This document shows positions 1,297 to 29,364 of a DNA stretch of 34,345 nt, piece by piece; positions within the stretch are counted from its first letter, which is position 1; each line of letters starts with the position of its first letter. This stretch comes from Lachnospiraceae bacterium (GTDB lineage Bacteria; Bacillota; Clostridia; Lachnospirales; Lachnospiraceae): assembly GCA_024698715.1 (NCBI GenBank), contig JAILRA010000037.1, positions 1 through 34,345 of the forward strand, written 5' to 3'. Made by a program: the position numbers and the translations under genes. The notes beneath the pieces are model-generated. The model made no database searches, was not told the DNA's origin, and saw only the letters and a list, made by a program, of their open reading frames with translations.

Positions 1297-2508
1297 TCAG
1301 CCACCGAGCGCTTCGTACAGAGTGAACATAGGACTAAGAATAGCGAGAATAAGGAAACCAACGATAAATGCCATCGCGATAATGATTACGGGCTCCATCA
1401 GGGCCATCATGGATTCGGTAGCATTCTGAACGTCTTCCTCATAATATGTAGCAACGTTCTCAAGCATTGTTTCGATATTACCTGTCTCTTCACCGATAGA
1501 AGTCATATGTACAACCATTGGAGGGAACAGGCCGCTTGTCTTAAGCGGTCGCGATAGGACGACGCCTCGGGCGACTTGTTCTTTGGCTTCCTTCATGGCA
1601 TTTTTATAATTATTGTTATCCATGGACTTGGCCGTTATATCCAGCGCATCGATCATCGGAACACCGGCACCGAGAAGTGTTGTAAGTGTACGTCCGAGTT
1701 TTGCACAGGCTTTCTTTTGCTGAATGGGTCCGAGGACGGGGATTCTCAAAACAAGTCTGTCAATGATCTCTTTACCCATGGCGGATGCCTGGAATGCTTT
1801 GAAAGCTACAAATAAAAGTGCACCAACAATGAGGATCAACCACCAGAATCTCACGAAGAAATGTGAAATGTTTACAATAACCATTGTGATTGCAGGCATT
1901 TCCGCATCCAAACCTTCAAACATACCCATGAATCTGGGAATAACAAACGTCATCATCGCGAAGATAACACCGATCAAAACAAAGATCAATACTATAGGAT
2001 AAATTACTGCTTTTTTAACAGCTGCTTCAAGCTGTGCATCCTTCTCGAACTGAGTTGCCATTCTCGAGAATGATTTATCCAAAGAACCTGATGCCTCACC
2101 GGCTTCAACCATGTTGCAGAGCATTGAAGGGAATACGCCGTTTCTTTTTCTCATGGCAACCGCAAGCGGTTCACCTTTCGAAATATCATCATGAACTTCC
2201 TGGATAGCAAATTTCAAAGCTTTATTTTCAGTCTGTTCACCGAGCATCTGGAATGCTTCAACGATAGTAACACCTGCCTGAATGATAGAAACAAACTGAT
2301 GACAGAATACGGAGAAATCTCTGGCTCTAACTTTCTTACCGAAAGAAAAGTTAATTTTTCTGCCCAAACCACCTGCTTCCTCAATATTAAGAACAGTGTA
2401 CTTTTCCTGTTTCAGATTGGCTACTGCCATTTCTTTTGTTTTAGCTTCAACGTGACCTTTTTTCTTTTTACCGTCAGGACCGACGGCAGTGTAAACATAC
2501 TCAGCCAT
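1297..2508 (-). CDS. pilC: Type IV pilus inner-membrane platform protein PilC (GspF family)
   Basis: A polytopic membrane protein that forms the assembly platform on which the PilB motor acts during pilus extension. The 403 residues match the family length. Two T2SSF domains are visible, at about 66-189 and 270-392, each opening with the usual FCxQ(F/L)-like or LGRTL-like helix. Hydrophobic segments lie near 168-193, 221-237 and 373-397. The N-terminal ~50 residues (YVYTAVGPDGKKKKGHVEA) are the typical PilC/GspF leader. The gene starts 21 bp after pilB with a GGTGGG ribosome site, so the two form one operon. A GspF of a type II secretion or Com pseudopilus system is an alternative, but the PilT in this window favours a true retractable pilus. 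Confidence 0.92.
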   Translation of the reverse strand: MAEYVYTAVGPDGKKKKGHVEAKTKEMAVANLKQEKYTVLNIEEAGGLGRKINFSFGKKVRARDFSVFCHQFVSIIQAGVTIVEAFQMLGEQTENKALKFAIQEVHDDISKGEPLAVAMRKRNGVFPSMLCNMVEAGEASGSLDKSFSRMATQFEKDAQLEAAVKKAVIYPIVLIFVLIGVIFAMMTFVIPRFMGMFEGLDAEMPAITMVIVNISHFFVRFWWLILIVGALLFVAFKAFQASAMGKEIIDRLVLRIPVLGPIQQKKACAKLGRTLTTLLGAGVPMIDALDITAKSMDNNNYKNAMKEAKEQVARGVVLSRPLKTSGLFPPMVVHMTSIGEETGNIETMLENVATYYEEDVQNATESMMALMEPVIIIAMAFIVGFLILAILSPMFTLYEALGG

Positions 2509-2529
2509 TTTTTCCCACCTTTACTTTTT

Positions 2530-4239
2530 TTAACCTACTTCTTCGTCCATATCGTAAGCAACTCTTACCATTTCTTCGATGGATGTAATACCCTCTTTAA
2601 CATTTCTGGCACCTGCCATACGAAGAGTGTTCATACCTTCTCTTACTGCAACTTCCTGAATTTCATCAGCAGTTACTTTTTGATGGAGTATCTTACGAAT
2701 TCCCGAAGTTATCGGCATTATTTCGTAGATAGCCTTACGGCCTTTATATCCTTTGTTGCATTCATCGCAACCAACGGGATCATAGATGATAAGACTTTCG
2801 TTCTGAGGGATACCAAGGATTTCTTTCTCTCTGTCGGTAGCCTCATGAGGAGCTTTGCATTTCGGACAAAGTCTTCTTACAAGTCTCTGTGCAATGATAC
2901 CTACAACGGCATCACCTATAAGATAAGACTCAACACCCATGTCTATAAGACGGGTAATGGATGCAGATGTTGAGTTTGTATGCAGTGTAGAGATAACCAA
3001 GTGACCGGTGATAGACGCTTTTACAGCGATACCTGCAGTTTCACCGTCACGGATCTCACCGATCATGATAATGTCAGGGTCCTGACGAAGAATGGAACGA
3101 AGAGCCGATGCGAAAGTAAGTTCAGCCTTTACGTTAACCTGTACCTGGTTGACACCGGGTACGTTTGCTTCTACAGGGTCCTCAACAGTAATGATATTAA
3201 CTGTTTCTTTATTCAATTCATGCAATACCGTGTAACAGGTGGTTGATTTACCGGAACCGGTAGGACCCGTTACAAGGATGATTCCGTGAGGGTTGTGAGT
3301 GATCGAATCAAGTTTCTTTTCATCATCGGGATAAAGACCCAGATGCTTCTTTTCTCTGGTAAGACCTCTCTTCTTCGTCATACGCATTACGGTTTTCTCG
3401 CCGTAAACGGTAGGAAGGATTGAAACACGGACGTCGTATTCTTCTCCGTCTACGATACGGGTAAGACGACCGTCCTGAGGTTTACGTTTTTCGGAAATAT
3501 CAAGACCTGAAACGATTTTGATACGTGCAACCATTGCCGGAAGAACGTTTGAAGGATAAACGAATACTTCCTGCAAAACACCGTCGACTCTGAATCGAAC
3601 CCTGACCTTGTCTTCCATGGGCTCGATATGAATATCGGAAGAATCCATACGCACGGACTCGTCAAGGATCGTATTGACGATCTTTACGATAGGTGCATCG
3701 TTTAAGGATTCATCTTCTTCCTCTTCATCAAGGCTTCCGAATTCTCCGGCATGCTCCGCCTGGAACTGTTCAGCTGCCTCCATAGCCTGCTTTCTTCCGT
3801 AGATCTTATCAATATTCATATTGATAGCCGTACTGGAAGCATATACAGGTGTTACTTCCATGCCTGTTACTATCTGAACGTCATCGATAGCAGCAAGGTT
3901 CATGGGATCTGACATCGCAACCTTGATCTTGGAATAATCGTTCTCGTCATATCCAATCGGGAAAAGAACATCCTTACGCATAATATCTTCGCCGATCGTA
4001 TCGAGAAGCTGCTGGTCAGGCTTAAAATTCTTTAAATCAACTGATTCAATGCCTAACTGATCGCAGATAACCCCCGAGAACTGTTCCTCGGTTACAAGTC
4101 CCATACTGATAAGAACTTCACCGAGTTTGCCCTTCTGCTCTCTCTGAGCTTCGAGAGCCTGGCTTAACTGATCGTCGGTAATGTACCCTTTCTGTACCAA
4201 TAAATCACCGACACGAATTCTGTTACCAAAAATCGCCAT
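2530..4239 (-). CDS. pilB: Type IV pilus extension ATPase PilB (GspE family)
   Basis: A hexameric cytoplasmic ATPase that powers pilus assembly with PilC. The 569 residues show the full family architecture: an N-terminal MshEN/T2SSE_N domain (about 1-150), a Glu-rich linker near 170-180, then the motor domain. The Walker A motif GPTGSGKS is at 325-332, and the Walker B-like segment (DPDIIMIGEIRD) and His boxes follow. A zinc-binding tetracysteine is formed by C458/C461 and C491/C494. An AGGGG ribosome site lies 9 nt before the ATG. The gene starts about 100 bp after thiN on the same strand with no clear terminator between them, so readthrough from thiN is possible. The intact tetracysteine and MshEN domain separate it from PilT. 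Confidence 0.95.
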   Translation of the reverse strand: MAIFGNRIRVGDLLVQKGYITDDQLSQALEAQREQKGKLGEVLISMGLVTEEQFSGVICDQLGIESVDLKNFKPDQQLLDTIGEDIMRKDVLFPIGYDENDYSKIKVAMSDPMNLAAIDDVQIVTGMEVTPVYASSTAINMNIDKIYGRKQAMEAAEQFQAEHAGEFGSLDEEEEDESLNDAPIVKIVNTILDESVRMDSSDIHIEPMEDKVRVRFRVDGVLQEVFVYPSNVLPAMVARIKIVSGLDISEKRKPQDGRLTRIVDGEEYDVRVSILPTVYGEKTVMRMTKKRGLTREKKHLGLYPDDEKKLDSITHNPHGIILVTGPTGSGKSTTCYTVLHELNKETVNIITVEDPVEANVPGVNQVQVNVKAELTFASALRSILRQDPDIIMIGEIRDGETAGIAVKASITGHLVISTLHTNSTSASITRLIDMGVESYLIGDAVVGIIAQRLVRRLCPKCKAPHEATDREKEILGIPQNESLIIYDPVGCDECNKGYKGRKAIYEIMPITSGIRKILHQKVTADEIQEVAVREGMNTLRMAGARNVKEGITSIEEMVRVAYDMDEEVG

Positions 4240-10212: not shown

Positions 10213-11292
10213 TTAAATAGGCGCCTGAATACCCTTGAGACCGAGTTTCTGGATCATTCCGACAGGATCCTGTGCGAACTGAACTACGTTCTCCTGGTCG
10301 ATCTTACCTTCAAGATAAAGCTGAGTAAGAGCTTCATCCATTGTGATCATACCCATCTTTCTGTTTGTCTGCATAACTGACTGTAACTGATGTGATTTAC
10401 CTTCACGGATAAGGTTTCTGACAGCGTGGTTACCAAGCATAACTTCAAATGCAGCAACACGGGAACGTCCGTCAGCTGTAGGAATAAGCTGCTGAGAGAT
10501 AACTGCTTCCAAAACGTTGGCTAGCTGTACTCTGATCTGCTGCTGCTGATGAGGCGGGAAAACGTCGATGATACGGTCGATGGTCGAAGCAGCACCGATT
10601 GTATGGAGTGTAGATAATACAAGGTGTCCCGTTTCGGCTGCGGTTACAGCTACGGAAATTGTTTCGTAGTCACGCATTTCACCTACGAGGATGATATCGG
10701 GATCTTCACGAAGAGCAGCTCTAAGTGCGTTAGCATAACTCATGGTATCAAATCCGACCTCACGCTGGTTAACCATTGCAACTTTATGAAGATGCAGGTA
10801 TTCGATAGGGTCCTCAAGTGTGATGATATGAGCATCACGGTTGTTATTAGCTTTATCAATGATCGAAGCAAGTGTTGTAGATTTACCTGAACCTGTAGGT
10901 CCTGTAACGAGAACAAGTCCTCTCTTACGGTTGTAAAGTTCTACAACTGCATTGGGAACACCTAACTGAGCCGGTGTAGGAATTACGGTATTAACGGCAC
11001 GGAGAGCCATTGCAACCGAACCACGCTGACGGAATGCATTAACACGGTAACGTCCGAGGTTGGTAACTGCGAATGACATATCGAGTTCACCTCTCTCTTC
11101 GAACATCTGCTTCTGATGCTCCGTCATGATCTGACCTACAATATCCAAAGTATCTTCGGGTTTAAGAACAGGAAAATCCATATTTAAAAGATGACCGTTA
11201 ACACGCATCTTAGGCGGAAGTCCGGCTGTCAAATGAATATCTGACGCTCTGGAATCCATTGCAACCTGTAAAACCTCTTCGATTCTAACCAT
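10213..11292 (-). CDS. pilT: Type IV pilus retraction ATPase PilT
   Basis: A hexameric ATPase that depolymerises the pilus. It is needed for twitching and, in many species, for DNA uptake. The 359 residues include an N-terminal PAS-like domain opening with SRASDIHLTAGLPPKMRVNG, Walker A GPTGSGKS (131-138), the Asp box (ITLEDPIEY), Walker B (EDPDIILVGEMRD), the His box (STLHT) and the PilT-specific AVRNLIREGK motif near the C-terminus. There is no tetracysteine, which separates it from PilB. AAGGGG lies 9 nt before the ATG. It stands alone with its own promoter and terminator, 6 kb from pilBC, so extension and retraction motors can be regulated separately. Confidence 0.95.
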   Translation of the reverse strand: MVRIEEVLQVAMDSRASDIHLTAGLPPKMRVNGHLLNMDFPVLKPEDTLDIVGQIMTEHQKQMFEERGELDMSFAVTNLGRYRVNAFRQRGSVAMALRAVNTVIPTPAQLGVPNAVVELYNRKRGLVLVTGPTGSGKSTTLASIIDKANNNRDAHIITLEDPIEYLHLHKVAMVNQREVGFDTMSYANALRAALREDPDIILVGEMRDYETISVAVTAAETGHLVLSTLHTIGAASTIDRIIDVFPPHQQQQIRVQLANVLEAVISQQLIPTADGRSRVAAFEVMLGNHAVRNLIREGKSHQLQSVMQTNRKMGMITMDEALTQLYLEGKIDQENVVQFAQDPVGMIQKLGLKGIQAPI

Positions 11293-11446: not shown

Positions 11447-12745
11447 TTAATATAAGTTTTTTTGAACATTCGAAATTACTTTTTGTATTTTATTATATGT
11501 TTTTTCGTTAATGCCGGCTTTTTCAAAGTAAATATTTAAATTATCTGAAATATCTTTAATTTCGTCAATTATCCTTTCAGCCGTATTCTTTTTTATATTC
11601 ATTTTTGAAGCTGATTCTATTAAATCAGAATACGTTATTTCTTCTGTTTTCCCATTGACCATCATTTGATGAGCTTTAAGCCACATATTATTCAGATTAT
11701 ATGAGAACGTTATATCATAAGCAGGCGCAAGTTTCCAAACTCCCTGTCTGTTCATCAAAAACGAAATATTCTTCACATGATCATCTTGATTTACCATCAT
11801 CACATTAAAAATCATTCGACGATAAAGCTGAATTATATCTTTTTGAGATATATTCATATTCCTCATTAATCCTGAAGCTTGTTCATAACTGCATAATCCG
11901 GGGAAATTATAATCTATATGAGAAATTGCACCCAGCGTCTGCATATGCATTTTCTGATTATTTATTCTGTCAAACCTTTTTGTCATGAAATGATGAAATC
12001 CATTGTCTTCAAATAATCTGCATTCATTCATATCAATCCCTGAGTCTTTTGCCATCAAATAATATGCATATTCTATAAGAGTATACTCAGTTCCGTCTTT
12101 GAGATTATGATCACCGTTTTTGCTTACCCCGTCAAATTTCATAAGCCAGTACTCAAACCCATTTTCCGCTTCTATCTGACCACTTCTAATCTCTTGTGTT
12201 TTTTCATTCCATGCAATCAGGGCTTTAGCTCTTGCACCTCCTGCAGATGTTCCCAACTGAAGCAATTGACCATAATCGGAATCTTCTCGAGAAATGTTTA
12301 TTTTATTACGTGATGAAAGTATTTCAGAAGCAAAATCAACCATCTTTTGAATAATTATAGGTTCATCAGTTTTAGATGCGGGCCCGACAGCCGGAATGTA
12401 TTCCAATGCTCCCATTCCTCTCGTTCCGGTATAGCAAAGCCTGTCTATTACGCCAAATTCTTCCAAGCTCCTTCCTTGTTCAGATAGCCATCTCTCAATT
12501 ATACTGTTACCGAATTTATCGGGAAGAGAATCTGCCACAAGTCCGGGTGCACCATGGAATGTGCCACCGATAAGTTCAGGAAAGGAATAAACCTTGTCTG
12601 ATAAAGGCATTTTTATTGGTGAAAGATTAATATTACTTCTCAAAAAATCTTTATCATATTCAAAAGAAATATATGAAATATTTGAAGAATGATGCAAAAT
12701 TCCTACTCTTGTACCCCATAACATCACTTCTGCTGTATCAATCAC
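11447..12745 (-). CDS. hipA: HipA-family serine/threonine kinase toxin
   Basis: Toxin of a HipBA-type module. E. coli HipA phosphorylates glutamyl-tRNA synthetase and causes growth arrest. The 432 residues are close to the usual length and cover both the HipA_N-like region (about 1-110) and the kinase-like HipA_C region. Visible key positions are the glycine-rich loop GTSAGGARAK around S167 (counterpart of the autophosphorylated Ser150 of E. coli), D321 in QDDHVKN and D344 in AYDIT. The 23-residue spacing of these two aspartates equals that of E. coli D309 and D332. The start is GTG, overlapping the hipB stop by 4 nt (GTGA), with GGGGGGAT upstream. It is apparently intact and active. The true target may differ from that of E. 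coli. Confidence 0.9.
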   Translation of the reverse strand: MIDTAEVMLWGTRVGILHHSSNISYISFEYDKDFLRSNINLSPIKMPLSDKVYSFPELIGGTFHGAPGLVADSLPDKFGNSIIERWLSEQGRSLEEFGVIDRLCYTGTRGMGALEYIPAVGPASKTDEPIIIQKMVDFASEILSSRNKINISREDSDYGQLLQLGTSAGGARAKALIAWNEKTQEIRSGQIEAENGFEYWLMKFDGVSKNGDHNLKDGTEYTLIEYAYYLMAKDSGIDMNECRLFEDNGFHHFMTKRFDRINNQKMHMQTLGAISHIDYNFPGLCSYEQASGLMRNMNISQKDIIQLYRRMIFNVMMVNQDDHVKNISFLMNRQGVWKLAPAYDITFSYNLNNMWLKAHQMMVNGKTEEITYSDLIESASKMNIKKNTAERIIDEIKDISDNLNIYFEKAGINEKTYNKIQKVISNVQKNLY

Positions 12746-13065
12746 ACTTCATCCCCCCATTTAAAATCAGAAACAGTCTTTTTCTTTTTTCCAACCCTGG
12801 ATCTTTCATGCGGCTTTTCCAAATAATATGAAGGCCTGTCTCTTTGATCCGGAATTAATATTTTTAAATTTTCATCTAATTCCAAAGCTTTTAATAGTTT
12901 TATGAAATTACTAAGATTAATATCTTCTCCATTTTCAAATCGGGATATACTTCTTTCGGAAACACCGCTTTTTTCAGCTAATTCCTTTTGAGTCATAGGG
13001 TAATAAATCCTGTACAGTTTTAACTTTTCTCTTAATTCATTTATATTTGTATCATAATTATTCAT
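12742..13065 (-). CDS. hipB: HipB-like XRE-family antitoxin and repressor
   Basis: Expected to neutralise HipA and to bind the operon promoter. I choose the ATG at 13065 (107 residues) over an upstream start at 13113, because GAGG lies 8 nt before it and the extra N-terminal residues look unrelated to the family. A Cro/C1-type helix-turn-helix spans about 9-62, with MTQKELAEKSGVSERSISRFE as its core helices. The tail from about 70 on is basic (RVGKKKK) and ends WGDEV, possibly the HipA-contacting or degradation-prone part. Translational coupling to hipA through the GTGA overlap is typical of toxin-antitoxin pairs. The long palindrome just upstream supports autoregulation. Confidence 0.85.
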   Translation of the reverse strand: MNNYDTNINELREKLKLYRIYYPMTQKELAEKSGVSERSISRFENGEDINLSNFIKLLKALELDENLKILIPDQRDRPSYYLEKPHERSRVGKKKKTVSDFKWGDEV

Positions 13066-13113
13066 AAAGCAATCCTCATGAAAACCATTAATCAATCGCA
13101 AACAGCATTTCAA

Positions 13114-14470: not shown

Positions 14471-16282
14471 TTACTTTTTGTCATCAAGTTTCAAAACAGA
14501 CATAAATGCCGCCTGAGGTATTTCCACATTACCGATCTGCCTCATACGCTTCTTTCCTTCTTTTTGTTTCTCAAGAAGTTTCTTCTTACGTGTGATATCA
14601 CCGCCGTAGCATTTGGCAAGTACATCTTTTCTCATTGCCTTAACAGTCTCTCTGGCAATAATCTTTCCGCCTACTGCAGCCTGAATGGGTATCTCAAAAA
14701 GATGTCTGGGTATCTCATCCTTTAGTTTTTCACACATCTTACGACCGCGTTCATATGCCGTGTCTTTATGTACAATAAATGATAAAGCGTCGACTTCTTC
14801 GTGATTAACAAGAATATCCAGTTTGACCAGATCTGACCTTTCATAGCCTTTCAGATCATAATCAAACGAAGCATATCCTTTCGATCTGCTCTTAAGTGCA
14901 TCGAAAAAGTCATAAATGATCTCATTTAACGGAAGTTCGTATTTCAAAAGAGCTCTGGTTTCTTCCATATACTCCATTCCGAGATATCTGCCTCGTCTCT
15001 CCTGACACAATTCCATGATCGAACCTATAAACTCAGTCGTAACCATTATTTCAGAGGAAACGATCGGTTCTTCCATATAATCGATCAAAGAAGGATCCGG
15101 AAGATTTGAAGGATTTGTAAGTTCTATCATCTCTCCTGCCGTGGTATGTACATGATAAACAACTCCGGGAGCCGTTGTGACAAGATCAAGATTATATTCT
15201 CTCTCAAGTCTCTCCTGAATTATCTCAAGGTGAAGAAGCCCCAGAAAACCGCAACGGAAACCAAATCCCAAAGCTATCGAAGTCTCAGGCTCATAATTAA
15301 GCGAAGCATCATTTAACTGAAGTTTTTCAAGAGCATCTCTCAAGTCAGGATATTTTGCACCATCCGCAGGATATACGCCGCAATAAACCATCGAATGCAC
15401 TTTCTTGTAACCGGGGCACGGTTCTTTGCAGGGATTTTTCGCATCGGTTACCGTATCTCCGACTGCCGTATCACGTACATTTTTAATTGAGGCGGTAAAA
15501 TATCCTACCATTCCGGCTGTCAGTTCGTCGCAGGGAATAAACTGACCAGCGCCGAAAGTTCCCACTTCAACAACCTCGCATGTCGCTTTTGTTGCCATCA
15601 TCAGTACATTGGTACCTTTGGATATTCTTCCTTCCATCATACGACAGAATACAATAACACCCTTATATGAATCATATAAAGAATCAAAGATCAAAGCTTT
15701 AAGAGGCGCGTTAACATCGCCTTTCGGAGCAGGAATCTTATGTACAATAGCTTCAAGTACTTCATCTATTCCTATTCCGTTCTTGGCTGAGATCAGAGGA
15801 GCATCCTGCGCTTCAATACCGATTACATCTTCTATTTCATCTATAACCCTCTTAGGTTGAGCAGAAGGAAGATCGATTTTATTTATTACGGGAAATACAT
15901 CAAGATTGTGATCAAGCGCAAGATAAACATTGGCAAGAGTCTGCGCTTCTATCCCCTGTGCAGCATCAACGACAAGAATGGCACCGTCACATGCAGCCAA
16001 AGAACGGCTGACTTCATAATTAAAGTCAACATGTCCCGGTGTATCGATCAGATTAAAAATATACTCATTACCGTCTTTAGCTTTATATACTGTTCTGACG
16101 GCCTGTGATTTGATCGTAATCCCACGTTCTCTCTCAAGATCCATATTGTCCAGCACCTGCGCCTGCATTTCTCTGCTTGTCAAAAGACCGGTGCTTTCAA
16201 TAATTCTGTCAGCCAAAGTTGACTTGCCGTGATCTATATGAGCGACTATACAAAAATTTCTGATTTTACTTTGATCTGTCAT
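14471..16282 (-). CDS. lepA: Elongation factor 4 (LepA), ribosome-associated GTPase
   Basis: A translational GTPase related to EF-G, linked to ribosome biogenesis and translation under ionic or cold stress. From the ATG at 16282 the protein has 603 residues, the family norm. The G1 motif AHIDHGKS is at 14-21, switch I ([10 protein letters not shown]), G3 (DTPGHVDF) and G4 (NKID) follow, and the C-terminal LepA-specific domain ends with the basic [16 protein letters not shown] region. A longer reading from a GTG at 16336 is possible but starts inside the rpsT terminator; AAGGA 7 nt before 16282 decides the start. With rpsT upstream and hemW downstream it forms the classic block, although the terminator after rpsT limits co-transcription. 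Confidence 0.95.
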
Positions 16283-16324
16283 TGTGCTTCCTTGAATAAA
16301 TACTCTTGTCTGCTTGTGCATAAA

Positions 16325-16356
16325 AAACTCTTCCACATGACGGTATGGAAGAGTTT
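16325..16356 (-). terminator. Terminator between rpsT and lepA
   Basis: A perfect 11-bp stem, AAACTCTTCCA (16325-16335) with TGGAAGAGTTT (16346-16356), has a 10-nt loop. On the minus strand the stem ends in a run of six T. It starts about 27 bp past the rpsT stop. Only about 40 bp remain before lepA, too little for a good separate promoter, so lepA probably relies on partial readthrough. Confidence 0.85.
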
Positions 16357-16382: not shown

Positions 16383-16646
16383 TTAGTTCATTTTATTAAC
16401 AGCAAGACTTAAACGGGAAATCTTTCTTGAAGCGTAATTCTTATGATATACGCCCTTGGATGTTGCTTTCTCGATAACGCTTGTAGCATTGGTCAATGCT
16501 GCTTTTGCCGCTTCCTTATCGTTAGCATCGATTGCTGCGTAAACTTTCTTAACAGCAGTCTTAACGCCTGAACGAATGGCTTTATTTCTCTCAGCGTTTC
16601 TTGCAGAAACTTCAATTCTCTTCTTTGCAGATTTGATATTAGCCAA
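16383..16646 (-). CDS. rpsT: Small ribosomal subunit protein S20
   Basis: A primary 16S rRNA-binding protein of the 30S subunit. It is 87 residues, highly basic and helical, opening MANIKSAKKR, which is the S20 signature. The start codon is TTG: GGAGG lies 8 nt upstream and no ATG in frame fits the family N-terminus. A UUG start is also known for E. coli rpsT, where it takes part in autogenous control, so the same could apply here. It has a strong own promoter and terminator, and the downstream gene is lepA. Confidence 0.95.
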   Translation of the reverse strand: MANIKSAKKRIEVSARNAERNKAIRSGVKTAVKKVYAAIDANDKEAAKAALTNATSVIEKATSKGVYHKNYASRKISRLSLAVNKMN

Positions 16647-16772: not shown

Positions 16773-19700
16773 TTAAATCTTAAAATTGCGCTGTCTGGAA
16801 ATCGGCGACTCCAAAGGTTCTGTCATTTCGGCAGCCTCTTTCGCATCAAGCATAACGCTGATCGGCGGCTGTACGATATCTTCTTCGGTTTCAGTCACTT
16901 CATTATTCCATTTGGATTTTTTACTCTTTTTTTTATTTTTCTTTGATTTGAAAAACGGATTTTCCTTCTTCGGAGTTTCTTTTACTTCATTTGTTTCAGC
17001 TATAGCCTCCGTTACCTGTTCGGAAACGATATCGGTATTTTCTGCAGCAAATTCGGTATTCATATTAAGATCATCAGCATTCAGTTCGGAAGTAATTCCC
17101 GAAGAAACAGATGAATACTCTGTCGAATTAACAGCATTACCGGAAATAACCGAAGCATCAGAAGACAATCCTGAAAAAGTATTGATACTCTGTTTTTCTT
17201 CGTTTTCAATCTCAGATCTTGTGTGCAGATTTACAAATCCGAAATCACCGGAATTGTCGGATTTCTGAACAGGATTCTTCTTTTCATCACCTACGGGAAT
17301 ATACTCGCCGTTTTTGATTATAGCGATAACTCTCTGTTTGTCACTGTAAACTTTTTCGGGTTTTTCTTCCCTGGTTTTACTCGGTTCTTCCTCAATATTT
17401 CTGCTTATTTTCGTAGATTTGATAACCCTTGCATTTTTAAAAACAATCGAAGTATCAATCTTACTGTTTAGCAAATTTGCCTTGGATCCGTCACTTTTTT
17501 CCGTGATTATCTCTTTTTTTTTAAACCCTCCGAATAAAGACGGTTTTTCTTTTCCGGCACTGTATGAATTCTCGGTATTGTTTTCTGCCGGTTTTTCTTT
17601 TATCGGATCATTTGTACTGCCTTCCGGAGCATCACCGAATACTCTATATGTTTTTTTAGGGATAGGTCTTTCATCAAAAACATAATCAACATCGTATTCA
17701 TTGTTTTCAAGATTTTTCTTTCTGGCAATTTCCGATGCGGAAAAATCGTATCTATTTGCAGATTCTTTTACGATATGGAAATCATCGCCTGAACTGTTGG
17801 CAGGCTTTTCTTCTTCAATCTTAGTTTCGCTTTTAACTATATTGCTCGAAGGAATATTGTTATTTCCTAAATTATCCCCACCGTCGTATTTTTCTACCAT
17901 CTGATTCATCGCTTCTCTCTTATTGGTGTAACTGAGAGCAAAATCAGAACCGTAAATATCGTTTGAATTCGTTCCGCTTCTTATGATGTTTTCGTCTTTC
18001 TTAGCATCTTCGGATGTAGGAACAGAAGGCTGATATTTATTGGACCAGCTTTTAACTATCGCTCTTCCCGCAGCCTGTTCATCGAGTTTCGAAAGAGTAT
18101 CATCTTCTTCAACATTCTTAACTTCCTTATCATCTTCAGATTCTTCAATAACATCTTCTGACTCGTCAAATGATTCAAAATCAGACTTTGAAGATTCTTC
18201 GTTTACGTTAAAAGTTTCAGAAGCGCTGACCGGCGAAGGAGCAAAAGCATTGTATCTGTCCGTGCTGACATCTTCAAATTCAAGAGGAACATCATCATCC
18301 TGATAAGTTACTTCTTCGAATTCTTCTTCCTCTTCTTCATCAATAAATTCAGCATTATCGTTTACAGCAAATTCTGCATTATTAACTGATTCAACATCAA
18401 ATTGATCGTTAGCGTTTTCAAAAGAAATCTCCGATTCTTCTTCGATTTCTTCATTTTTAACTTCTTCCGAAACTTCATTATCATCTTCGGAAGTTTCTTC
18501 TGTTACATCGTCATTTGACTCATCAGCATTATCATCCGATGCATCTTCAGGTTCTGAAACTTCAGCAGTTTCTTCCTGCTCTGCAACAGATTCTTCTTCG
18601 GTAACTTCTTTCTCAGTTTCGGATTTGTCGGATTCTTCCGATGAATCTTCCGGCTCGGAAGCTTCAGCAGTTTCTTTCTGCTCTTCAGCGGATCCTTCCG
18701 TTACTTCTTTCTCGGTTTCCTCAACATCAATCTTATCTGATGCTTCTTTACTTTCGGAAACTTCAGCAGTTTCTTCCTGCGTATCTTTATTTTCGGATAC
18801 TTCTATGGTTTCATCCTTCTCAACGACAGTTTCCTGTTCAGTTGCTTTGTTTTCAGTTTCTTTTTCGTTAGAAACATCAACGGTATCTTTAGCCTTGTTT
18901 TCAGAAACTTCAGCAGATTCCTTTACCTCAACAGCCTTATCATCTTCAACGACAATTTCAACCACATCAGCTTTTTCCGCAACGTTAAGTTCTATTTCTT
19001 TTGACTTTCCGGCTGCTTCTTCAAGTTCACGTGCAACCTCGGAAGGTCTTCTGATGACCTTTTCTTCAACAAACTTGAAATTAGGATCGCGTTTTACATT
19101 GGCTATATCCTCTTTGGTAACTACTCTTTCATGAGGATTTGTAATATCTATTACATCATCTCTTTCAAAAGTCTCTACTCTGATAAAGGAAACAGGATCG
19201 CCTTCTATGCTGTTTTCAAGCACTTTCTCTCTGGAAATGATCTTTTCGTCATGAAGTTTCTGTAAAATCTCGGGATCAGTTTCATTCTTGAAACTTTCAA
19301 CGGTTTCGAAATTATAAATACTTCTTGATGAAGAATTATGACGTCTCTCGTTTTTGTATCTTGCCGAATTATTCATCGTACGACGAGAGAATACTCTGTT
19401 GCCGAATCCGGGCAGGCTGATGGATTCAACTTCGCCTTTTTCTTCTTCCTCTGTTTCACCGGAGCCCTTAACATTAAATACAACTTTATCGGAACCCTTG
19501 GTTTCAGAATCTTTTTCAGACTTCTTTTCAGAAGATGCTTCTTCGGATTTTTCTTCAGCTTCAGACGACTCATCTTTTGATTCAGAATCATCCTTTGACG
19601 AAACTTCTTCGGTTTCTTCTTCAGCTTTTTCTTCTTCTGCCTTCTCTTCGGAAGAATCTGCATCCTTTATTTCAACTGATTCAGTTTCTTCAATTTCTGA

Positions 19701-22700
19701 AGTTTCTTCAGGGTCAACATTCTCTTTTTCTTCTGCAATTTCTGCATCGTCTTCAGAAGTAACTGCTAATGTTTCCTCTTCGTTTTCTGAAGTTTCCTCA
19801 AAAGCAACACTTTCGTTTTCTTCCGAACTGTCTACGCTGTCTTCAAACGTATCCTCAACCGTTACTTCTTTTTCTTCTGATGTTTCTTCAAAAGTTTCTG
19901 CAGATTCGGCATTTTCAGTCTCTGCCTTTTCTTCAAAATCAACGCTTTCAGCTTCTTCTGTTTCTAAGCTTTCTTCAATAAGCTCAGTGTTTGTTTCTTC
20001 CGCATCGGCTTTTTCTGTTTCTGCAGTTTCCTCTATGTCGGAATTCTCAGTCACTTCCGCAGATTCGATCGTTTCATCCGAAACTTCTTCTTTCTTCTTA
20101 TCGGATTTATGTTCCTGTTCAAATTCACTGTATAAAGCATTCAAAGCTGCATCCAAAGGATCCAGTTCTTCCACGGGAATTTCAACTGCGGGTGTTTCGA
20201 CTGCAGGAGTTTCAGCCTTACTTACAGCTTCTTCACTTTCTTTTACATCATCAGTTTCAACAGGGTTCTCCTGAACAGCAATTTCTTCTGCAACAGGAAT
20301 TTCAGTCGAAGCAGTTTCAACGATTTCAGGTTCTTCTGCTTTGACTTCAACAGAACTTTCTTTATCAACTTTGGATTTCTTATTATCCTTGGCTGCCTTT
20401 GTGCTTGATTTTTTCTTTTTCTTAGTAGTTTTCTTTTTGCCGGATTTCTCTTCGAACTCTTTGTATAATTCATTCAGTTCTCTGTCGAGAGGATCCATAT
20501 ATTCTTCGGGAATCTTGTTTTCTTCTTCGGAATCGGCATCATCGGAATCCTCTCCTGACGAATCTGGATCATCCGAAGTTTCTTCATTCGTATCAGTCAA
20601 TGTTTCCTCTTCAGTCTTCTCTTCTGCAGAAGTTTCAATCACTTCATCTGATACGATGTTTTCATCTGCCGTTTCTGTCTTTTCTTCCGTCTCAACAGAA
20701 ATATCTTCTACATCTGCAATAGTATCTTCAACCGATTCAGCAGGCGCTTCTTCAACATCAGTCTCAACAGCCTCTTCAGATATTTCTTCTTCGGATATCT
20801 CTTCAACAGGTTCAGAAATTGCCTCTTCATTAATTTCTTCTGCCGGTTCAGCTACTGCTTCTTCAACACTGTCTTCATCAGAATCTGCTGAAATCTCTTC
20901 AACTGTTTCAGTTATAGTTTCTTCAACATTTTCTTCAACCGAATCTTCGGATATCTCTTCAACAGGTTCAGCAATTGACTCTTCAATAATTTCTTCTGCC
21001 GGTTCGGCAATTTCTTCTGCTATTTCAGCAACTGCTTCTTCAACACTTTCTTCTTCAGATTCTGCCGAAATCTCTTCATCCGCTTCAAGCACTGCTTCTT
21101 CAAAGATATTTTCTTCAGACTGAGCTATTACTTCGTCAACAGTTTCTACTGCTGTTTCTTCCGTTTCAACAGTTTCGCTAACGATATCTTCTGCAACGGA
21201 ATCAGCAGCTTCTTCAACTCTTTCAGTCATTGTATCTGTTGTCATTTCAAAAGCATTCTCTTCCGAAACGGCACTAAAGTTCTCTTCAAGAATTTCTGTC
21301 TTGGCATCATCAGTAACATCGATGATTTCTTCATTTATGATTTCTGTTACAGGTTCTTCAACCGTCTCTGTAACTTCTTCTTTGATATATTCTGTCTTAG
21401 GCTTAGGAGGAACATACAAAGCTTTTCCGATATGAGCATTCTCTTCGGGTGTAAAGGAAGATCTTACATTTTCTTCCGCAACTTCCTGCTGAGCATCGGT
21501 GCCGAAAGGTATAGACTTTTGAGGGCGTGCAGCAATAACAACCGAATTATTTAAAATAACCGGCTCTGTCAGTTTGGCATCGGGATCGGCCTTCTTAATG
21601 GGCGTCATCATCGGACGTCTCATTCTTCTGGGAGGAACGTATTCCGAATTCTCACCGTCATTGGGTTTGATCTGCTTCTGGATAGGAACGGCATTTCCTC
21701 TGTATTCACCTTCACCCGAAAGCAAAGCTGAATTGTAGGATTTTTCAGCATTGTCATCATTCGAAACTTCATTGATATTCCAAACCATCTCCTTGTTTTG
21801 AGAAAGTCCGAGAATATTCTTTACAGCCTCGAAAGATGTCTTCATGGATTCATCGATCGAACTGAATCTGTGCTGTCCGTTACGTCCGATACAGTACAGA
21901 TTATCAAAAGTTTTAAGGAATTTAACAACTTTATCACGTTTTTCATATCCGTTGTCATATGAAGGGAACGCTTTATTGTATTTAATCTTTGTATACGAAA
22001 TAAGAGAATCTTCCGACTTAATGATGCCGAGTTTATTAAGATCACCGAGAATGGCTTTCTTCCAGTCACGGTCATTCATTGACCAGTAATAATCGCCTTC
22101 GTTGCAGTAATAGTTCATACCGAGATAGATATGATCTTTGTTTCTGATCATATAAGGCGAAAAGTTATTATAGATCTGAATTCTTGAAACTTTTACATTG
22201 GGATTGGAAATATAAACAAAAGAATCGGGAGCAATATTGTCGATAGACTTATGCTCTTCGGTATCGTTTTTCCAAACCATATCTTTAAGTTCAACGCAAA
22301 CACTGACAAGGCCTCTGTAGGATAAATCCTCAGCGGCAATCCTGATCTTATCGTCAACTTCATCCATTCCCATGACCAGATCCCTGATAGGCATGGAAGA
22401 AATAAGATAATCGCAGGCAACTATAAACTCATCTCCGTCTGCGTAGCATTTAACGGATGTGATCTTTTTACCGTTTGTGGTAATACCTTCAACTTTACAG
22501 TTCTTATGAATGCTTCCGCCCATTTCAATGAATCTGTCGGCAACATTCTCCCACATCTGGTACGCACCGAATTTGGGATAATAATATCTTCCCGCAAAAG
22601 GAGCAGGCAGTTTTTCATAATCTTTTTTGGTCTTATCCGTACTTATAACGGGAGCAATGAGGCTTTTCTCGGAAATCGGTCCCCACGCTGACGACATTCT

Positions 22701-23279
22701 CGAAGGTTTTGTACCCCAGATCTTTTCAAGGTACTCTTCCTGGAACATTGTGAATAACTGTTTTCCCGATCGGTTTACATAATAATCCTCAAGGGATTCT
22801 TCTTTATGTTTAAATACATTACCTCCGATCTGGGAAAAACCGGATTTAATGGATGTGGCAATTCCGAAATTCTTTACAGCCTCTTTATTGTTGAATATAA
22901 CAGGGGAATCATAAAATTTATTCTCTTTGTAGATCCTCGTTACTTTTTCACGCGACAAAAGAACGTCTTCCGTATCCTCGGGATCCGGACCGCCGTTTGC
23001 AATCTTGCAATATCTGTCCAATATTAAATCGTCACTGGAAGGTTTACCCTGAGCCGGAAGAATGGAATTCCAGAATTTCTTAACCTCAGAGTTGTTAGAA
23101 ATAAACATATGACCGCCCGGATCCAAAACGTTTCCTTCGTTCTCGAAACGGGCACAAAGGCCGCCTACGACAGGCGTTTCCTCTATTATCGTAACTTCAT
23201 AATCAGATGATTTAGAAATTAAATCGTATCCTGCTGTGAGACCCGCAGGACCGGCACCGATAATTATAACTTTTTTCAT
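16773..23279 (-). CDS. Giant fusion: FAD-dependent oxidoreductase (UGM/amine-oxidase-like) plus long acidic low-complexity tail
   Basis: One uninterrupted 2,168-residue frame. Residues 1-495 are a flavoprotein: the dinucleotide-binding GAGPAGL (8-14), then an acidic E-E at strand 2, VGGLCARF, a central YYPKFGAYQMWE segment and a C-terminal RNGQHRFSSIDESM motif. It resembles the FAD oxidoreductases related to UDP-galactopyranose mutase and protoporphyrinogen oxidase; the substrate is unknown. A basic patch (about 546-560) leads into very Glu/Ser/Val/Thr-rich sequence (about 620-1285 and 1420-1733). Inside this lie a Lys-rich patch (945-970), two copies of a DPLDxxLNxLYxEFE motif (929, 1040) and a less acidic island (1285-1420). 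The last ~435 residues are mixed, with a basic NPFFKSKKNKKKSKK near the end. There is no signal peptide or obvious membrane helix. It lies 17 bp after the DUF1836 gene. The tail's function is unknown. Confidence 0.85.
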   Translation of the reverse strand: MKKVIIIGAGPAGLTAGYDLISKSSDYEVTIIEETPVVGGLCARFENEGNVLDPGGHMFISNNSEVKKFWNSILPAQGKPSSDDLILDRYCKIANGGPDPEDTEDVLLSREKVTRIYKENKFYDSPVIFNNKEAVKNFGIATSIKSGFSQIGGNVFKHKEESLEDYYVNRSGKQLFTMFQEEYLEKIWGTKPSRMSSAWGPISEKSLIAPVISTDKTKKDYEKLPAPFAGRYYYPKFGAYQMWENVADRFIEMGGSIHKNCKVEGITTNGKKITSVKCYADGDEFIVACDYLISSMPIRDLVMGMDEVDDKIRIAAEDLSYRGLVSVCVELKDMVWKNDTEEHKSIDNIAPDSFVYISNPNVKVSRIQIYNNFSPYMIRNKDHIYLGMNYYCNEGDYYWSMNDRDWKKAILGDLNKLGIIKSEDSLISYTKIKYNKAFPSYDNGYEKRDKVVKFLKTFDNLYCIGRNGQHRFSSIDESMKTSFEAVKNILGLSQNKEMVWNINEVSNDDNAEKSYNSALLSGEGEYRGNAVPIQKQIKPNDGENSEYVPPRRMRRPMMTPIKKADPDAKLTEPVILNNSVVIAARPQKSIPFGTDAQQEVAEENVRSSFTPEENAHIGKALYVPPKPKTEYIKEEVTETVEEPVTEIINEEIIDVTDDAKTEILEENFSAVSEENAFEMTTDTMTERVEEAADSVAEDIVSETVETEETAVETVDEVIAQSEENIFEEAVLEADEEISAESEEESVEEAVAEIAEEIAEPAEEIIEESIAEPVEEISEDSVEENVEETITETVEEISADSDEDSVEEAVAEPAEEINEEAISEPVEEISEEEISEEAVETDVEEAPAESVEDTIADVEDISVETEEKTETADENIVSDEVIETSAEEKTEEETLTDTNEETSDDPDSSGEDSDDADSEEENKIPEEYMDPLDRELNELYKEFEEKSGKKKTTKKKKKSSTKAAKDNKKSKVDKESSVEVKAEEPEIVETASTEIPVAEEIAVQENPVETDDVKESEEAVSKAETPAVETPAVEIPVEELDPLDAALNALYSEFEQEHKSDKKKEEVSDETIESAEVTENSDIEETAETEKADAEETNTELIEESLETEEAESVDFEEKAETENAESAETFEETSEEKEVTVEDTFEDSVDSSEENESVAFEETSENEEETLAVTSEDDAEIAEEKENVDPEETSEIEETESVEIKDADSSEEKAEEEKAEEETEEVSSKDDSESKDESSEAEEKSEEASSEKKSEKDSETKGSDKVVFNVKGSGETEEEEKGEVESISLPGFGNRVFSRRTMNNSARYKNERRHNSSSRSIYNFETVESFKNETDPEILQKLHDEKIISREKVLENSIEGDPVSFIRVETFERDDVIDITNPHERVVTKEDIANVKRDPNFKFVEEKVIRRPSEVARELEEAAGKSKEIELNVAEKADVVEIVVEDDKAVEVKESAEVSENKAKDTVDVSNEKETENKATEQETVVEKDETIEVSENKDTQEETAEVSESKEASDKIDVEETEKEVTEGSAEEQKETAEASEPEDSSEESDKSETEKEVTEEESVAEQEETAEVSEPEDASDDNADESNDDVTEETSEDDNEVSEEVKNEEIEEESEISFENANDQFDVESVNNAEFAVNDNAEFIDEEEEEEFEEVTYQDDDVPLEFEDVSTDRYNAFAPSPVSASETFNVNEESSKSDFESFDESEDVIEESEDDKEVKNVEEDDTLSKLDEQAAGRAIVKSWSNKYQPSVPTSEDAKKDENIIRSGTNSNDIYGSDFALSYTNKREAMNQMVEKYDGGDNLGNNNIPSSNIVKSETKIEEEKPANSSGDDFHIVKESANRYDFSASEIARKKNLENNEYDVDYVFDERPIPKKTYRVFGDAPEGSTNDPIKEKPAENNTENSYSAGKEKPSLFGGFKKKEIITEKSDGSKANLLNSKIDTSIVFKNARVIKSTKISRNIEEEPSKTREEKPEKVYSDKQRVIAIIKNGEYIPVGDEKKNPVQKSDNSGDFGFVNLHTRSEIENEEKQSINTFSGLSSDASVISGNAVNSTEYSSVSSGITSELNADDLNMNTEFAAENTDIVSEQVTEAIAETNEVKETPKKENPFFKSKKNKKKSKKSKWNNEVTETEEDIVQPPISVMLDAKEAAEMTEPLESPISRQRNFKI
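20091..20162 (-). repeat. Second copy of the DPLD motif in the giant protein
   Basis: Encodes residues 1040-1063, DPLDAALNALYSEFEQEHK followed by SDKKK. It pairs with the copy at 929-950; both begin DPLD, keep L-N-x-L-Y-x-E-F-E and end in a Lys cluster. It looks amphipathic and helical, unlike the surrounding disordered sequence. Confidence 0.7.
20430..20495 (-). repeat. First copy of the DPLD motif in the giant protein
   Basis: Encodes residues 929-950, DPLDRELNELYKEFEEKSG followed by KKK, 111 residues before the second copy. The conserved spacing of Leu, Leu-Tyr and Phe suggests a short binding helix rather than random low complexity. Confidence 0.7.
20793..20900 (-). repeat. Acidic repeat unit B (36 residues)
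   Basis: Encodes residues 794-829, running from EEISADSDEDS to ISEPVEEIS. It is a near copy of unit A (735-777) with conservative Glu/Asp and Ala/Ser changes, and it lacks a 7-residue insert. Similarity is also visible at the DNA level, so it is a duplication rather than mere composition bias. Confidence 0.7.
20949..21077 (-). repeat. Acidic repeat unit A (43 residues)
   Basis: Encodes residues 735-777, running from EEISAESEEES to IAEPVEEIS. It differs from unit B mainly by a 21-bp in-frame insert that adds a second IAEE-type step. This points to expansion of the tail by local duplication or slippage. Confidence 0.7.
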
Positions 23280-23296: not shown

Positions 23297-23977
23297 TTAA
23301 AACTTTTTGCTTTGTTTGTCTTTCTTCTTATCGGAAAGACTTTCTTTTTCGTTCTTTCGAACTTCGTCTATAAGCTGTTCGATAAGCATCTTTTTTATAA
23401 ATACATCATAGCTTAAAAGACTTATGAGAAGGAAAAGTCTTAAATAATCTCCGTCCTCTCCTTCAATCTCTTTAAAAGATTTCATGCTGGCTTCATATTT
23501 ATCCCGGATATCATGACTCAGAAGACTGATTCTTTCTTCTCCTATTTTAAGGATAGAGTCATAAATTTCGCTGAGCTTTATATCATCGTTGCCGTCAAAA
23601 TATTTGTCGGTTATCGGATTGACCAGCGTCTGAACATCATTTATGGAAAGAAAATTCTTAAAGTAATAGATGAATATCAAAGTCATCATATGCTCTTTTG
23701 AATATTTCTTTTTAACAGGCGGCGGAAGCAGATCGTTTTTCGCGTAATTGTTTATCATTGTCTTGGTAAAGATCTTCTCGTCACCCGATGCGGAATTTCT
23801 GCGTGTATAATTTAATTTTTCATCGAGAAAGGAAAGTACCTGATCCATATAAAGATCAATGTTCGGAATCTCTCCGCTTTTGATATTCAATACGCTTCCC
23901 ATTTCGGAAAGTATCGAATTCAAAACCTCATCAAAATCTCTTCCTTCATCATTTTCGATAATTCTATTTGTACTCAT
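23297..23977 (-). CDS. DUF1836 family protein
   Basis: A 226-residue cytoplasmic protein of unknown function. Residues about 45-155 match what I know of the DUF1836 family of Firmicutes: MDQVLSFLDEKL, then KIFTKTMINNYAKNDLLPPP, then KKKYSKEHMMTLIFIYYFKN with LSINDVQTL. The MINNY-K-LLPPP segment resembles the recognition part of MerR-like helix-turn-helix proteins, so DNA binding is possible but not shown. The C-terminus is Lys-rich (KKDKQSKKF). The ribosome site before the ATG is weak. It is first in a two-gene unit with the giant flavoprotein, whose AAGGGG ribosome site sits in the 17-bp gap. Confidence 0.8.
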   Translation of the reverse strand: MSTNRIIENDEGRDFDEVLNSILSEMGSVLNIKSGEIPNIDLYMDQVLSFLDEKLNYTRRNSASGDEKIFTKTMINNYAKNDLLPPPVKKKYSKEHMMTLIFIYYFKNFLSINDVQTLVNPITDKYFDGNDDIKLSEIYDSILKIGEERISLLSHDIRDKYEASMKSFKEIEGEDGDYLRLFLLISLLSYDVFIKKMLIEQLIDEVRKNEKESLSDKKKDKQSKKF

Positions 23978-24236: not shown

Positions 24237-24539
24237 ATGAATCCCAAATTAAAAACCAACGCAATGGATTCCCTTTTTGATGCAATTCTTTGCCTTGAAA
24301 CAAAAGAAGACTGTTATACTTTTTTCGAAGATTTGTGTACCATAAACGAGCTTTTATCTCTTTCACAGCGTTTCGAAGTGGCAACAATGCTTCGCGACAA
24401 GAAAACATATATGGAAATTGTAGAAAAAACCGGAGCTTCTACCGCTACGATAAGCAGGGTAAACAGATCTCTCAATTACGGATGCGACGGATATGAAATG
24501 ATATTCGAACGTCTCAATTCCAAAAAATCAAAGCCTTAG
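24237..24539 (+). CDS. yerC: YerC/YecD family TrpR-like DNA-binding protein
   Basis: A 100-residue helical protein of the YerC/YecD family, related to the Trp repressor fold. Visible are LTSQRFEVA-type residues (here LLSLSQRFEVATML, about 41-54) and the helix-turn-helix KTYMEIVEKTGASTATISRVNRSL (about 56-79), in which A-S-T-A-T-I-S-R-V is the family signature. The regulated genes are not known for certain. AGGAGG lies 5 nt before the ATG. The palindrome at its own promoter suggests autoregulation. It diverges from the DUF1836 unit, 259 bp apart, and is convergent with the LytM-like gene, with only 4 bp between the stops. Confidence 0.88.
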   Translation: MNPKLKTNAMDSLFDAILCLETKEDCYTFFEDLCTINELLSLSQRFEVATMLRDKKTYMEIVEKTGASTATISRVNRSLNYGCDGYEMIFERLNSKKSKP

Positions 24540-28272: not shown

Positions 28273-29364
28273 ATGCCGAACATATTTATTAGAATAAAAA
28301 AATTCCTCACAAAAGATGTCAAAAACGAATCCGAAGCCAAAGATCTGGCCGTTCTGCTTCGTCTTTTATGTATTCTTTCCGCATTATACATTTTTTGCAA
28401 TTCCATTTATTTTGCATGTATAGGTTCGTATCTTTTCGCTATCCTCTCGGTACCTATCATATGTCTTTACTGCGGAGTTTTCATCGAAACATACGAAAAC
28501 AAAACCAGATTTGCTTTGAATCTTTTTAATTACACATCAATCGCAACAGCCGTTATCTTTACGATATTCACGGGATGGGACAAGGATTACCAATGGCTTT
28601 TGTGTATCGTTTGCCTTCTGGTCTTCTTCTCTATCGAACAGGATGAAAAATATAAAAGAAACAATATGGAATTCATTTTGATAACAATGATAGTGATCGC
28701 CATTGTTTCTCATATCTTCGGTCCGTTCAAAAAAGGCAACAATATTGAAAATACGATATTTTCCGTCATTTCCGCTCTTTATTACGGCATATCGGTAATA
28801 TTGATCTCATACAATTTCAGCCGTAAATTCAATGCATCTGAAATAAAGCTGAGAAATTATAATCAGAGACTTCAGGAAATGGCTTCTCTGGATGCGCTTA
28901 CTCAATTACCAAACCGAAGAAGCATGAATGAGTATATGGCGCAGATGGTATTTGAAAAAGAGAAAAAAGGCGATATTTTCTGCGTAGCGATCGCCGATCT
29001 GGATTTTTTCAAAAAAATCAATGACCAGTACGGACATGATGCAGGTGATTTTATTCTTACCGAATGTGCGAAGATATTCACAAAAACCATGGAAGGCAGA
29101 GGAAAAGTCGCACGTTGGGGAGGCGAAGAATTTCTGTTTTGCTTTAATGATTTAAATATAGATCAGAGTTTTAAGATCCTCGATGAAATGCGTAAAAACA
29201 TTGACGAAAAAGTTTTCACTTATAAAGAGAACAATATTCACATTACGATAACCATCGGTCTCGAGGAATTCTATCATATAACCGGAATTGAAGGTACAAT
29301 ATCAAATGCCGACAAGAAGCTGTATGAAGGAAAACACACCGGCAGAAACCGAGTCGTCATATAG
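28273..29364 (+). CDS. Membrane-bound diguanylate cyclase (GGDEF)
   Basis: Predicted to make cyclic di-GMP from two GTP. The 363 residues begin with about six hydrophobic segments (27-47, 51-72, 84-102, 107-121, 133-150, 160-180), an unrecognised membrane sensor. A short linker (185-205) leads to the GGDEF domain, with DALTQLPNRRSM (207-218), ADLDFFKKIN (241-250), YGHDAGD and the signature GGEEF (283-287), an active form. The usual RxxD inhibitory site ahead of the signature is absent, so product inhibition is probably weak. AGGGG precedes the ATG. It is monocistronic, ended by a hairpin shared with folA. Since c-di-GMP often controls type IV pili, a link to the pil genes is possible but unproven. 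Confidence 0.9.
   Translation: MPNIFIRIKKFLTKDVKNESEAKDLAVLLRLLCILSALYIFCNSIYFACIGSYLFAILSVPIICLYCGVFIETYENKTRFALNLFNYTSIATAVIFTIFTGWDKDYQWLLCIVCLLVFFSIEQDEKYKRNNMEFILITMIVIAIVSHIFGPFKKGNNIENTIFSVISALYYGISVILISYNFSRKFNASEIKLRNYNQRLQEMASLDALTQLPNRRSMNEYMAQMVFEKEKKGDIFCVAIADLDFFKKINDQYGHDAGDFILTECAKIFTKTMEGRGKVARWGGEEFLFCFNDLNIDQSFKILDEMRKNIDEKVFTYKENNIHITITIGLEEFYHITGIEGTISNADKKLYEGKHTGRNRVVI

Follow-up and report, generated by a model that had tools for sequence, protein, structure and literature searches.

A UDP-galactopyranose mutase-like flavoenzyme with a long acidic, predicted-disordered C-terminal tail in one genus of Lachnospiraceae

Among the disordered arms carried by enzymes, the ancient arm of RNase E is the best known. 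The C-terminal half of the E. coli enzyme is described as large and mostly natively unstructured, with small linear motifs whose partners are RhlB, enolase and PNPase (PMC8546579). PopZ of Caulobacter and CsoS2 and CsoSCA of alpha-carboxysomes are described as bacterial proteins that are disordered, or have disordered domains, and that bring together or bind partners; in CsoSCA it is the N-terminal part that is disordered (PMC9512792; PMC10614612). It is by description that these three are likened to the protein presented here, the common trait being disorder together with the gathering or binding of partners; unlike in CsoSCA, the disordered part of the present protein lies at the C-terminus. 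PopZ and CsoS2 are not known to contain an enzyme domain. On the enzymatic side, the systems compared are NAD(P)/FAD oxidoreductases of the PRK07208 type (NCBIfam NF005546) and UDP-galactopyranose mutases, which use their flavin for the rearrangement of a sugar with no net redox change.

The DNA analysed here, referred to as the window, is a stretch of 34,345 nucleotides from a Lachnospiraceae bacterium (contig JAILRA010000037.1), and one of its genes continues from a flavoenzyme domain into a tail that extends 1,668 residues beyond residue 500. We propose, with a probability of about 0.5, that in the product a UDP-galactopyranose mutase-like flavoenzyme carries a disordered scaffold arm at its C-terminus, and that this arm works in the mode of RNase E. 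The enzyme would retain FAD binding, its substrate being a sugar linked to a nucleotide or a lipid; the spacer, with its strong charge, would hold the arm extended; and the conserved islands close to the enzyme, two elements termed VI and a C-terminal helix would each dock a partner protein. In this way the arm would keep enzyme and partners assembled, or at a single place in the cytoplasm. Such a mode would resemble that of the disordered half of RNase E, sequence and enzyme being unrelated. The likeness consists in an N-terminal enzyme followed by a long disordered non-catalytic part, here predicted only, and in short conserved motifs amid a poorly conserved region, a pattern seen here within the window's clade and partly across clades. 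The motifs of RNase E have known partners, whereas those of the tailed flavoenzyme are putative, and the two proteins are likened by description.

An earlier note on this DNA, made from the sequence alone, had reported a flavin enzyme that runs without a stop into a long tail, and exactly this frame was found, intact from the ATG at 23279 to the stop at 16773; the coordinates given in that note hold, and the minus strand, which it left unstated, has to be added to them. The plus strand of the same interval contains many stops. The features of the gene and its surroundings are collected in Table 1.

Table 1. Features of the tailed flavoenzyme gene and of its neighbours in the window (positions of the window; residues of the tailed protein).
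Feature	Position	Strand	Basis
Whole gene: flavoenzyme and acidic tail, 2,168 codons in one frame	16773..23279	-	open reading frame, also open in relatives
Residues 1-500, PRK07208-type FAD domain, UDP-galactopyranose mutase-like fold	21780..23279	-	NCBIfam NF005546, AlphaFold2, Foldseek
Residues 501-2168, acidic predicted-disordered tail	16776..21779	-	charge-hydropathy, AlphaFold2 pLDDT, no Pfam/PDB match
Island 512-535, EKSYNSALLSGEGEYRGNAVPIQK	21675..21746	-	five-representative alignment
Island 543-567, basic YVPPRRMRRPMMTPIKK inside	21579..21653	-	five-representative alignment
Island 572-588, SVVIAARP inside	21516..21566	-	five-representative alignment
60-bp tandem repeat, 4.6 copies, acidic spacer	20832..21103	-	repeat scan
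Residues 928-970, DPLDRELNELYKEFEE then lysine-rich patch	20370..20498	-	by eye
102-bp repeat, 1.8 copies, acidic spacer	18535..18719	-	repeat scan
Island 1733-1746, DEQAAGRAIVKSWS	18042..18083	-	five-representative alignment
Island 1940-1960, RVIKSTKI, first VI element	17400..17462	-	alignment, profile
Residues 1979-1998, two islands, RVIAIIKNGEYIPV, second VI element, predicted beta hairpin	17286..17345	-	alignment, AlphaFold2
Residues 2104-2124, basic lysine patch	16908..16970	-	sequence
Island 2135-2162, C-terminal PPISVMLDAKEAAEMTEPLESPI, predicted short helix	16794..16877	-	alignment, AlphaFold2
DUF1836 gene	23297..23977	-	stop 17 bases upstream of tailed gene's ATG
YerC/YecD-type TrpR-related gene, syntenic marker	24237..24539	+	family match
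rpsT, syntenic marker downstream	16383-16646	-	
lepA, syntenic marker downstream	14471-16336	-	

After residue 510 the protein is composed of 23% Glu, 10% Ser, 8% each of Asp, Lys and Val and 7% each of Thr and Ala, with a net charge of -325, and the tail after residue 500 has a pI of 4.1, no Cys, seven His and two Trp. The acidic character claimed in the earlier note is thus confirmed, while its suggestion of a metal-binding tail is not supported, with no cysteine and so few histidines. The tail had also been called repetitive; the repeats are real and modest, the largest being the 60-bp and 102-bp ones of Table 1, and the acidic spacer between the islands shows both tandem repeats and large changes of length. 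Two predictions favour the disorder that was to be checked. All 17 charge-hydropathy blocks from residue 501 onward fall on the disordered side, in a test that is crude, since the folded block 401-500 also falls just on that side, and AlphaFold2, whose models covered residues 1-600 and 1935-2168, gave a pLDDT below 50 over residues 528-600. For residues 1935-2168, modelled on nine rows, confidence is low on the whole (mean pLDDT 55, pTM 0.15). A Pfam scan of the window's tail yielded no match at E 0.01 and a search of PDB sequences none at E 0.1; one of the other four tails scanned matched Extensin_1 at 19.3 bits versus a cut-off of 105. A plain hydropathy scan gave a highest 19-residue mean of 1.35, at the FAD-binding start, and of 0.66 within the tail, and the protein has no LPxT[G/A] motif, in agreement with the claim that there is no export signal.

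When five representatives of the window's clade were aligned, with no shuffled control, eight islands could be distinguished, which together comprise 148 of 1,673 tail residues; three lie beside the enzyme, one near residue 1740 and three within 1940-1998, and the last is C-terminal. The motifs were chosen by eye before testing, and it was likewise by eye that DPLDAALNALYSEFEQ, ending at residue 1055, was seen to resemble DPLDRELNELYKEFEE. Within the AlphaFold2 model of residues 1935-2168 two places stand out by their values, the predicted hairpin of the second VI element (block mean 82) and, at about 70, the C-terminal region in which part of PISVMLDAKEAAEM is modelled as a short helix. Such a pattern is what one would expect of docking motifs on a disordered arm, and the scaffold or tether idea of the earlier note gains support from the short islands and predicted binding elements retained in the tail.

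The strength of selection differs along the frame. Ten pairs from five close relatives, compared without a neutral control, show a dN/dS of 0.02-0.04 in the FAD domain, of 0.00-0.07 over residues 500-600 and of 0.17-0.22 in the remaining tail; four further pairs, several of them with saturated dS, gave 0.02-0.06, 0.05-0.20 (one undefined) and 0.08-0.24, respectively, and in two other clades the constraint on residues 500-600 is looser (0.16 and 0.20). Synonymous changes greatly outnumber replacement changes, and by these computations the tail is under purifying selection. The values bear on the possible, if unlikely, explanation that the tail is an entropic bristle, i.e., a long negative brush that serves solubility, spacing or osmotic buffering and has no specific partners. 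The large net charge, the 1,525 of 1,673 tail residues that lie outside the islands and a tail length that, among the 20 copies read complete, varies from 474 to 1,668 residues would all suit a brush. However, residues 500-600 of the window's clade are nearly as constrained as the enzyme, and the VI elements are common to three clades and were recovered in a fourth, of which a pure brush requires neither.

Conservation of tail motifs between clades is only partly supported. The module formed by the first 99 tail positions was found in 12 of 99 genomes, once in each and only in the window's own clade; a shuffle (0.055) outdoes its best match in the tails of other clades (E 0.23), and searches of those tails did not recover the C-terminal helix motif. 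The N.ALL core of island 512-535 does occur soon after the enzyme in four clades, the window's included, and when each clade was left out in turn 4, 0, 0 and 17 of 1000 local shuffles scored as well, the last value being weak. The VI pair (RVIKSTKI ... RVIAIIKNG in the window) aligns over three clades, and a clade-A profile of the VI region matched the other tails at E 1.3e-7 (L059) and 0.0028 (L043 and L044), the best shuffle reaching 0.06. A two-element profile, made of seven rows from three clades and searched in six frames of 31 genomes, matched 28 places, namely 19 in tailed frames, one on a separate contig of G007, which may hold the remainder of that genome's tail, and eight weaker places elsewhere (E 0.10-0.80). 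In the B1 clade, which was unused in the profile, the best place of the genome fell inside the tail in 7 of 8 genomes, by matches that are weak (E 0.009-0.041) and span 14-19 positions only; the eighth (G028), in which a contig end truncates the copy, and the four B2 genomes gave no match to this profile. A single 14-residue VI motif failed when clades were left out, 616 of 1000 shuffles being as good for B1 and 757 of 1000 for B2. Two observations made on other tails may be added. A possible motif SIW(E/D)(E/D)VA was seen by eye in three clades (protein positions 798 in L043, 805 in L059 and 646 in L049) and is not clear in the window's clade. In yet another clade (L046, L050) the tails end in lysine/proline-rich stretches, e.g., KPKRTYKRKPK and KRGRKPK, which resemble AT-hook-like or nucleic-acid-binding patches.

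The enzyme that carries the arm is easier to place. Its residues 2-505 match NF005546 with 484.9 bits, above the curated cut-off of 418, which bears out the statement that the FAD-dependent N-terminal part is complete, and residues 1-500 were modelled by AlphaFold2 with mostly good confidence (block means 60 to 96, alignment of 35 rows). Among solved folds, Foldseek placed UDP-galactopyranose mutases (T. cruzi, A. fumigatus) first and porphyrinogen oxidases next; the best match, 4dsh_B (E 5.2e-27, TM 0.79 by target length and 0.63 by query length), shares 18% identity, with the GGH flavin motif and the phosphate arginine aligned. Because this nearest fold belongs to an enzyme that rearranges a sugar without net redox change, the term redox enzyme, used earlier for this protein, is doubtful. 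TIGR00031 and PF03275 are absent among the family matches of the tailed enzyme (E 0.001), and PF03275 is matched above its cut-off by a 395-residue frame on another contig of the same genome, so the tailed enzyme is probably dispensable for the mutase reaction.

Residue equivalents were taken from the alignment to the T. cruzi mutase, at about 18% identity and with a numbering offset of 3 set by hand. His62, Arg327 and Arg423 of that enzyme correspond to His57, Arg366 and Arg466 of the window's enzyme; all 85 untailed rows have them, and so do, respectively, 29, 28 and 29 of the 29 tailed ones. Two positions differ from the mutase in the window, where Lys205 stands for Arg176 and Phe472 for Tyr429. 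The lysine is general (85/85 untailed and 28/29 tailed rows), whereas the Tyr429 position is Tyr in all 85 untailed rows and is replaced in 14 of the 29 tailed ones, by Phe (11), Cys (2) or Met (1). All 11 Phe rows belong to one clade, the window's, thus the replacements amount to few events. Tyr429 of the T. cruzi mutase is reported to contact the substrate phosphate, and Tyr-to-Phe exchange at such tyrosines reduced a kinetic constant (PMC4192007). It may be, then, that the tailed enzymes of some clades have an altered activity. One could go further and suppose that the flavin domain of the window's clade binds FAD and has lost its ancestral chemistry, remaining as a structural or sensing part of what is mainly a scaffold. 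To this we give little credence, in spite of the lost tyrosine and the separate mutase-family gene, as the three equivalents named above are retained almost throughout the tailed rows, dN/dS of the flavin domain is 0.02-0.06 in 14 pairs, and the replacements are few events read from a distant alignment.

A sugar or glycan role for the flavoenzyme family, suggested by the mutase-like fold, would find mixed support in the surroundings of tail-less relatives. The tail-less paralogue in L060 is flanked by a nucleotidyl transferase, a PMT-type transferase and two sugar epimerase/dehydratase genes, L048 has a PMT-type neighbour and L063 a nucleotidyl transferase nearby. Other relatives have surroundings of a different sort: the neighbours include release factor RF3 in L064, a lipid kinase in L055, a radical SAM protein and DUF6044 in L062, and a histidine kinase and a flavodoxin-type protein in L094; in L061 two neighbours were scanned and neither had a Pfam match.

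The tailed gene is present in 30 of the 31 genomes of the window's genus, and the remaining one (G010, 80% complete) has a weak match only (E 1.4e-5, 29% identity, 260-residue frame). In 29 of the 31, the window counted, the frame continues beyond residue 700; the copy of G015 is cut by a contig end after 201 residues, and contig ends also cut the copies of several relatives. Twenty copies, the window's included, were read complete, the proteins having 974 to 2,168 residues. A tail of this size is hardly a turnover signal that shortens the life of the enzyme or leaves its level to proteolytic control. Bacterial proteases can readily seize a protein by a long disordered C-terminus, yet a degron requires tens of residues, not 500-1,700, and the conserved module beside the enzyme would be left unexplained. 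The extent of the frame in 29 genomes together with purifying selection puts the tailed frame beyond chance, and on a plain reading the whole of it is translated and maintained. An artefact, whether two genes joined by a sequencing or assembly error, which the earlier note had named as a refutation, or an untranslated frame, can be dismissed on the same grounds and because the first tail module was encountered in none of 99 genomes as a gene of its own, even though the genome is a draft of 108 contigs and relatives' copies break at contig ends.

Outside the genus the enzyme ends where the window's tail begins. No tail was found among 70 matching genomes of a family sample of 397 (72 matches at E 1e-50, two of them inside the genus), nor among 31 other matching genomes of a class sample of 391 (32 matches at E 1e-30 including the window; three genomes are common to both samples). 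This survey rests on stop-to-stop frames, of which only those above 600 residues were opened individually; they measure 233-591 residues except for three of 662, 721 and 724. In two of these three the protein ends 520 and 523 residues after the match start, the surplus lying upstream, and the third contains a run of N and has the usual end motif at its end. Some weaker matches (E >1e-8), which cover roughly the initial 75 residues and sit in frames as long as 1,028 residues, were attributed to other flavoproteins and left uncounted. Within the genomes searched, the tailed form is restricted to one genus. Likewise, in 75 of 80 named relatives the protein stops 506-539 residues beyond the start of the match, whereas the window's protein has 1,668 residues past residue 500. 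The other five, Lachnospiraceae metagenome bins of which one is from water buffalo rumen and one from roe deer rectum, are tailed; their contigs equal in length those of five genus genomes, so that they are not independent. The earlier note had regarded homologues that always end near residue 500, with an unrelated gene downstream, as an argument against a fused architecture; such an end is the rule among relatives outside the genus and untrue within it.

How the tail arose can be approached from the junction. Untailed relatives mostly stop just past ...NIWNVNTE.EYHE, and several tailed copies keep this motif and then enter the tail, the window's clade having an altered motif before it; the tail therefore seems to be an extension of the natural end of the enzyme. 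In a tree of the enzyme domain, from which long rows and the outgroup were excluded, one branch with support 100/98 separates 22 tailed from 25 untailed rows, and a quick tree of 29 tailed and 35 untailed rows gave support 99 with a long-branch warning. All tailed rows being on one side of one branch, the trees fit a single gain of the tail. The alternative origin, a second gene fused on as the tail, was rejected, since the profile of the first 99 positions, searched in 99 genomes, matches this same protein only; that stretch has no match in 72,556 plasmid records either. The search for a donor covered the first tail module and the VI pair (the latter in 31 genomes), and a diverged donor gene is possible.

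The surroundings of the gene bear on its arrival at the locus. The DUF1836 gene upstream and the tailed gene are probably on one transcript. A YerC-like gene adjoins the tailed gene in 30 of 30 genus loci, the window included, with DUF1836 matched between the two in 22; the eight loci with no DUF1836 match (L042, L043, L044, L046, L050, L051, L052 and L056) mean that DUF1836 does not invariably accompany the tailed enzyme. In the window's clade rpsT and lepA come after the tailed gene wherever the sequence examined extends, and in other clades rpsT, where matched, is on the opposite strand. Ten stretches from other genera, taken around DUF1836 matches (present in 13 of 15 genomes searched), contain DUF1836 in 10/10, YerC on the same stretch in 9/10 and the flavoenzyme in 0/10, which suggests that the flavoenzyme probably joined the locus within the genus or its ancestor. 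Elsewhere in the window there are type IV pilus genes, pilC-like, pilB-like and pilT (1297-4239 and 10213-11292, both minus strand), the pilB-like gene with an MshE-type c-di-GMP-binding domain, as well as a GGDEF diguanylate cyclase (28273-29364, plus strand). Between pilT and hemN lies a HipA-like gene with a helix-turn-helix partner (11447-13113, minus strand), and it may be an insertion, since in L037, L039 and L040 the pilT and hemN matches adjoin and leave no space for it.

In the open-licence literature, surveyed by titles and starts of abstracts, nothing was found on the tailed flavoenzyme or on disordered tails of such enzymes; PRK07208 had no match there, and no DUF1836 title concerned the tailed gene. 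For RNase E a disordered arm is documented (PMC8546579), and the tailed flavoenzyme would work in a similar manner. To our knowledge, this combination of enzyme and tail has no counterpart elsewhere, and disordered arms that exceed 1,000 residues are rare among bacterial enzymes. A bolder version of the scaffold reading, which we consider unlikely, would make the enzyme the hub of a new cytoplasmic assembly, its tail gathering partners via the islands, perhaps as a condensate, and the flavin domain of the window's clade being shifted in activity or turned into a flavin-bound sensor. If true, it would mean a degradosome-like enzyme hub in one gut/rumen genus of Lachnospiraceae, and we know of no hub of such kind elsewhere. 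The point at which the arm was gained can be located on a tree, as the family offers tail-less relatives and some of the same genomes hold tail-less paralogues, complete in three genomes of the genus and partial in a fourth. These relatives and paralogues offer a natural test of the way in which an enzyme acquires a disordered arm, and of how that arm grows and comes by its motifs. Does such an arm alter the enzyme that bears it? The same natural test would apply to this question as well.
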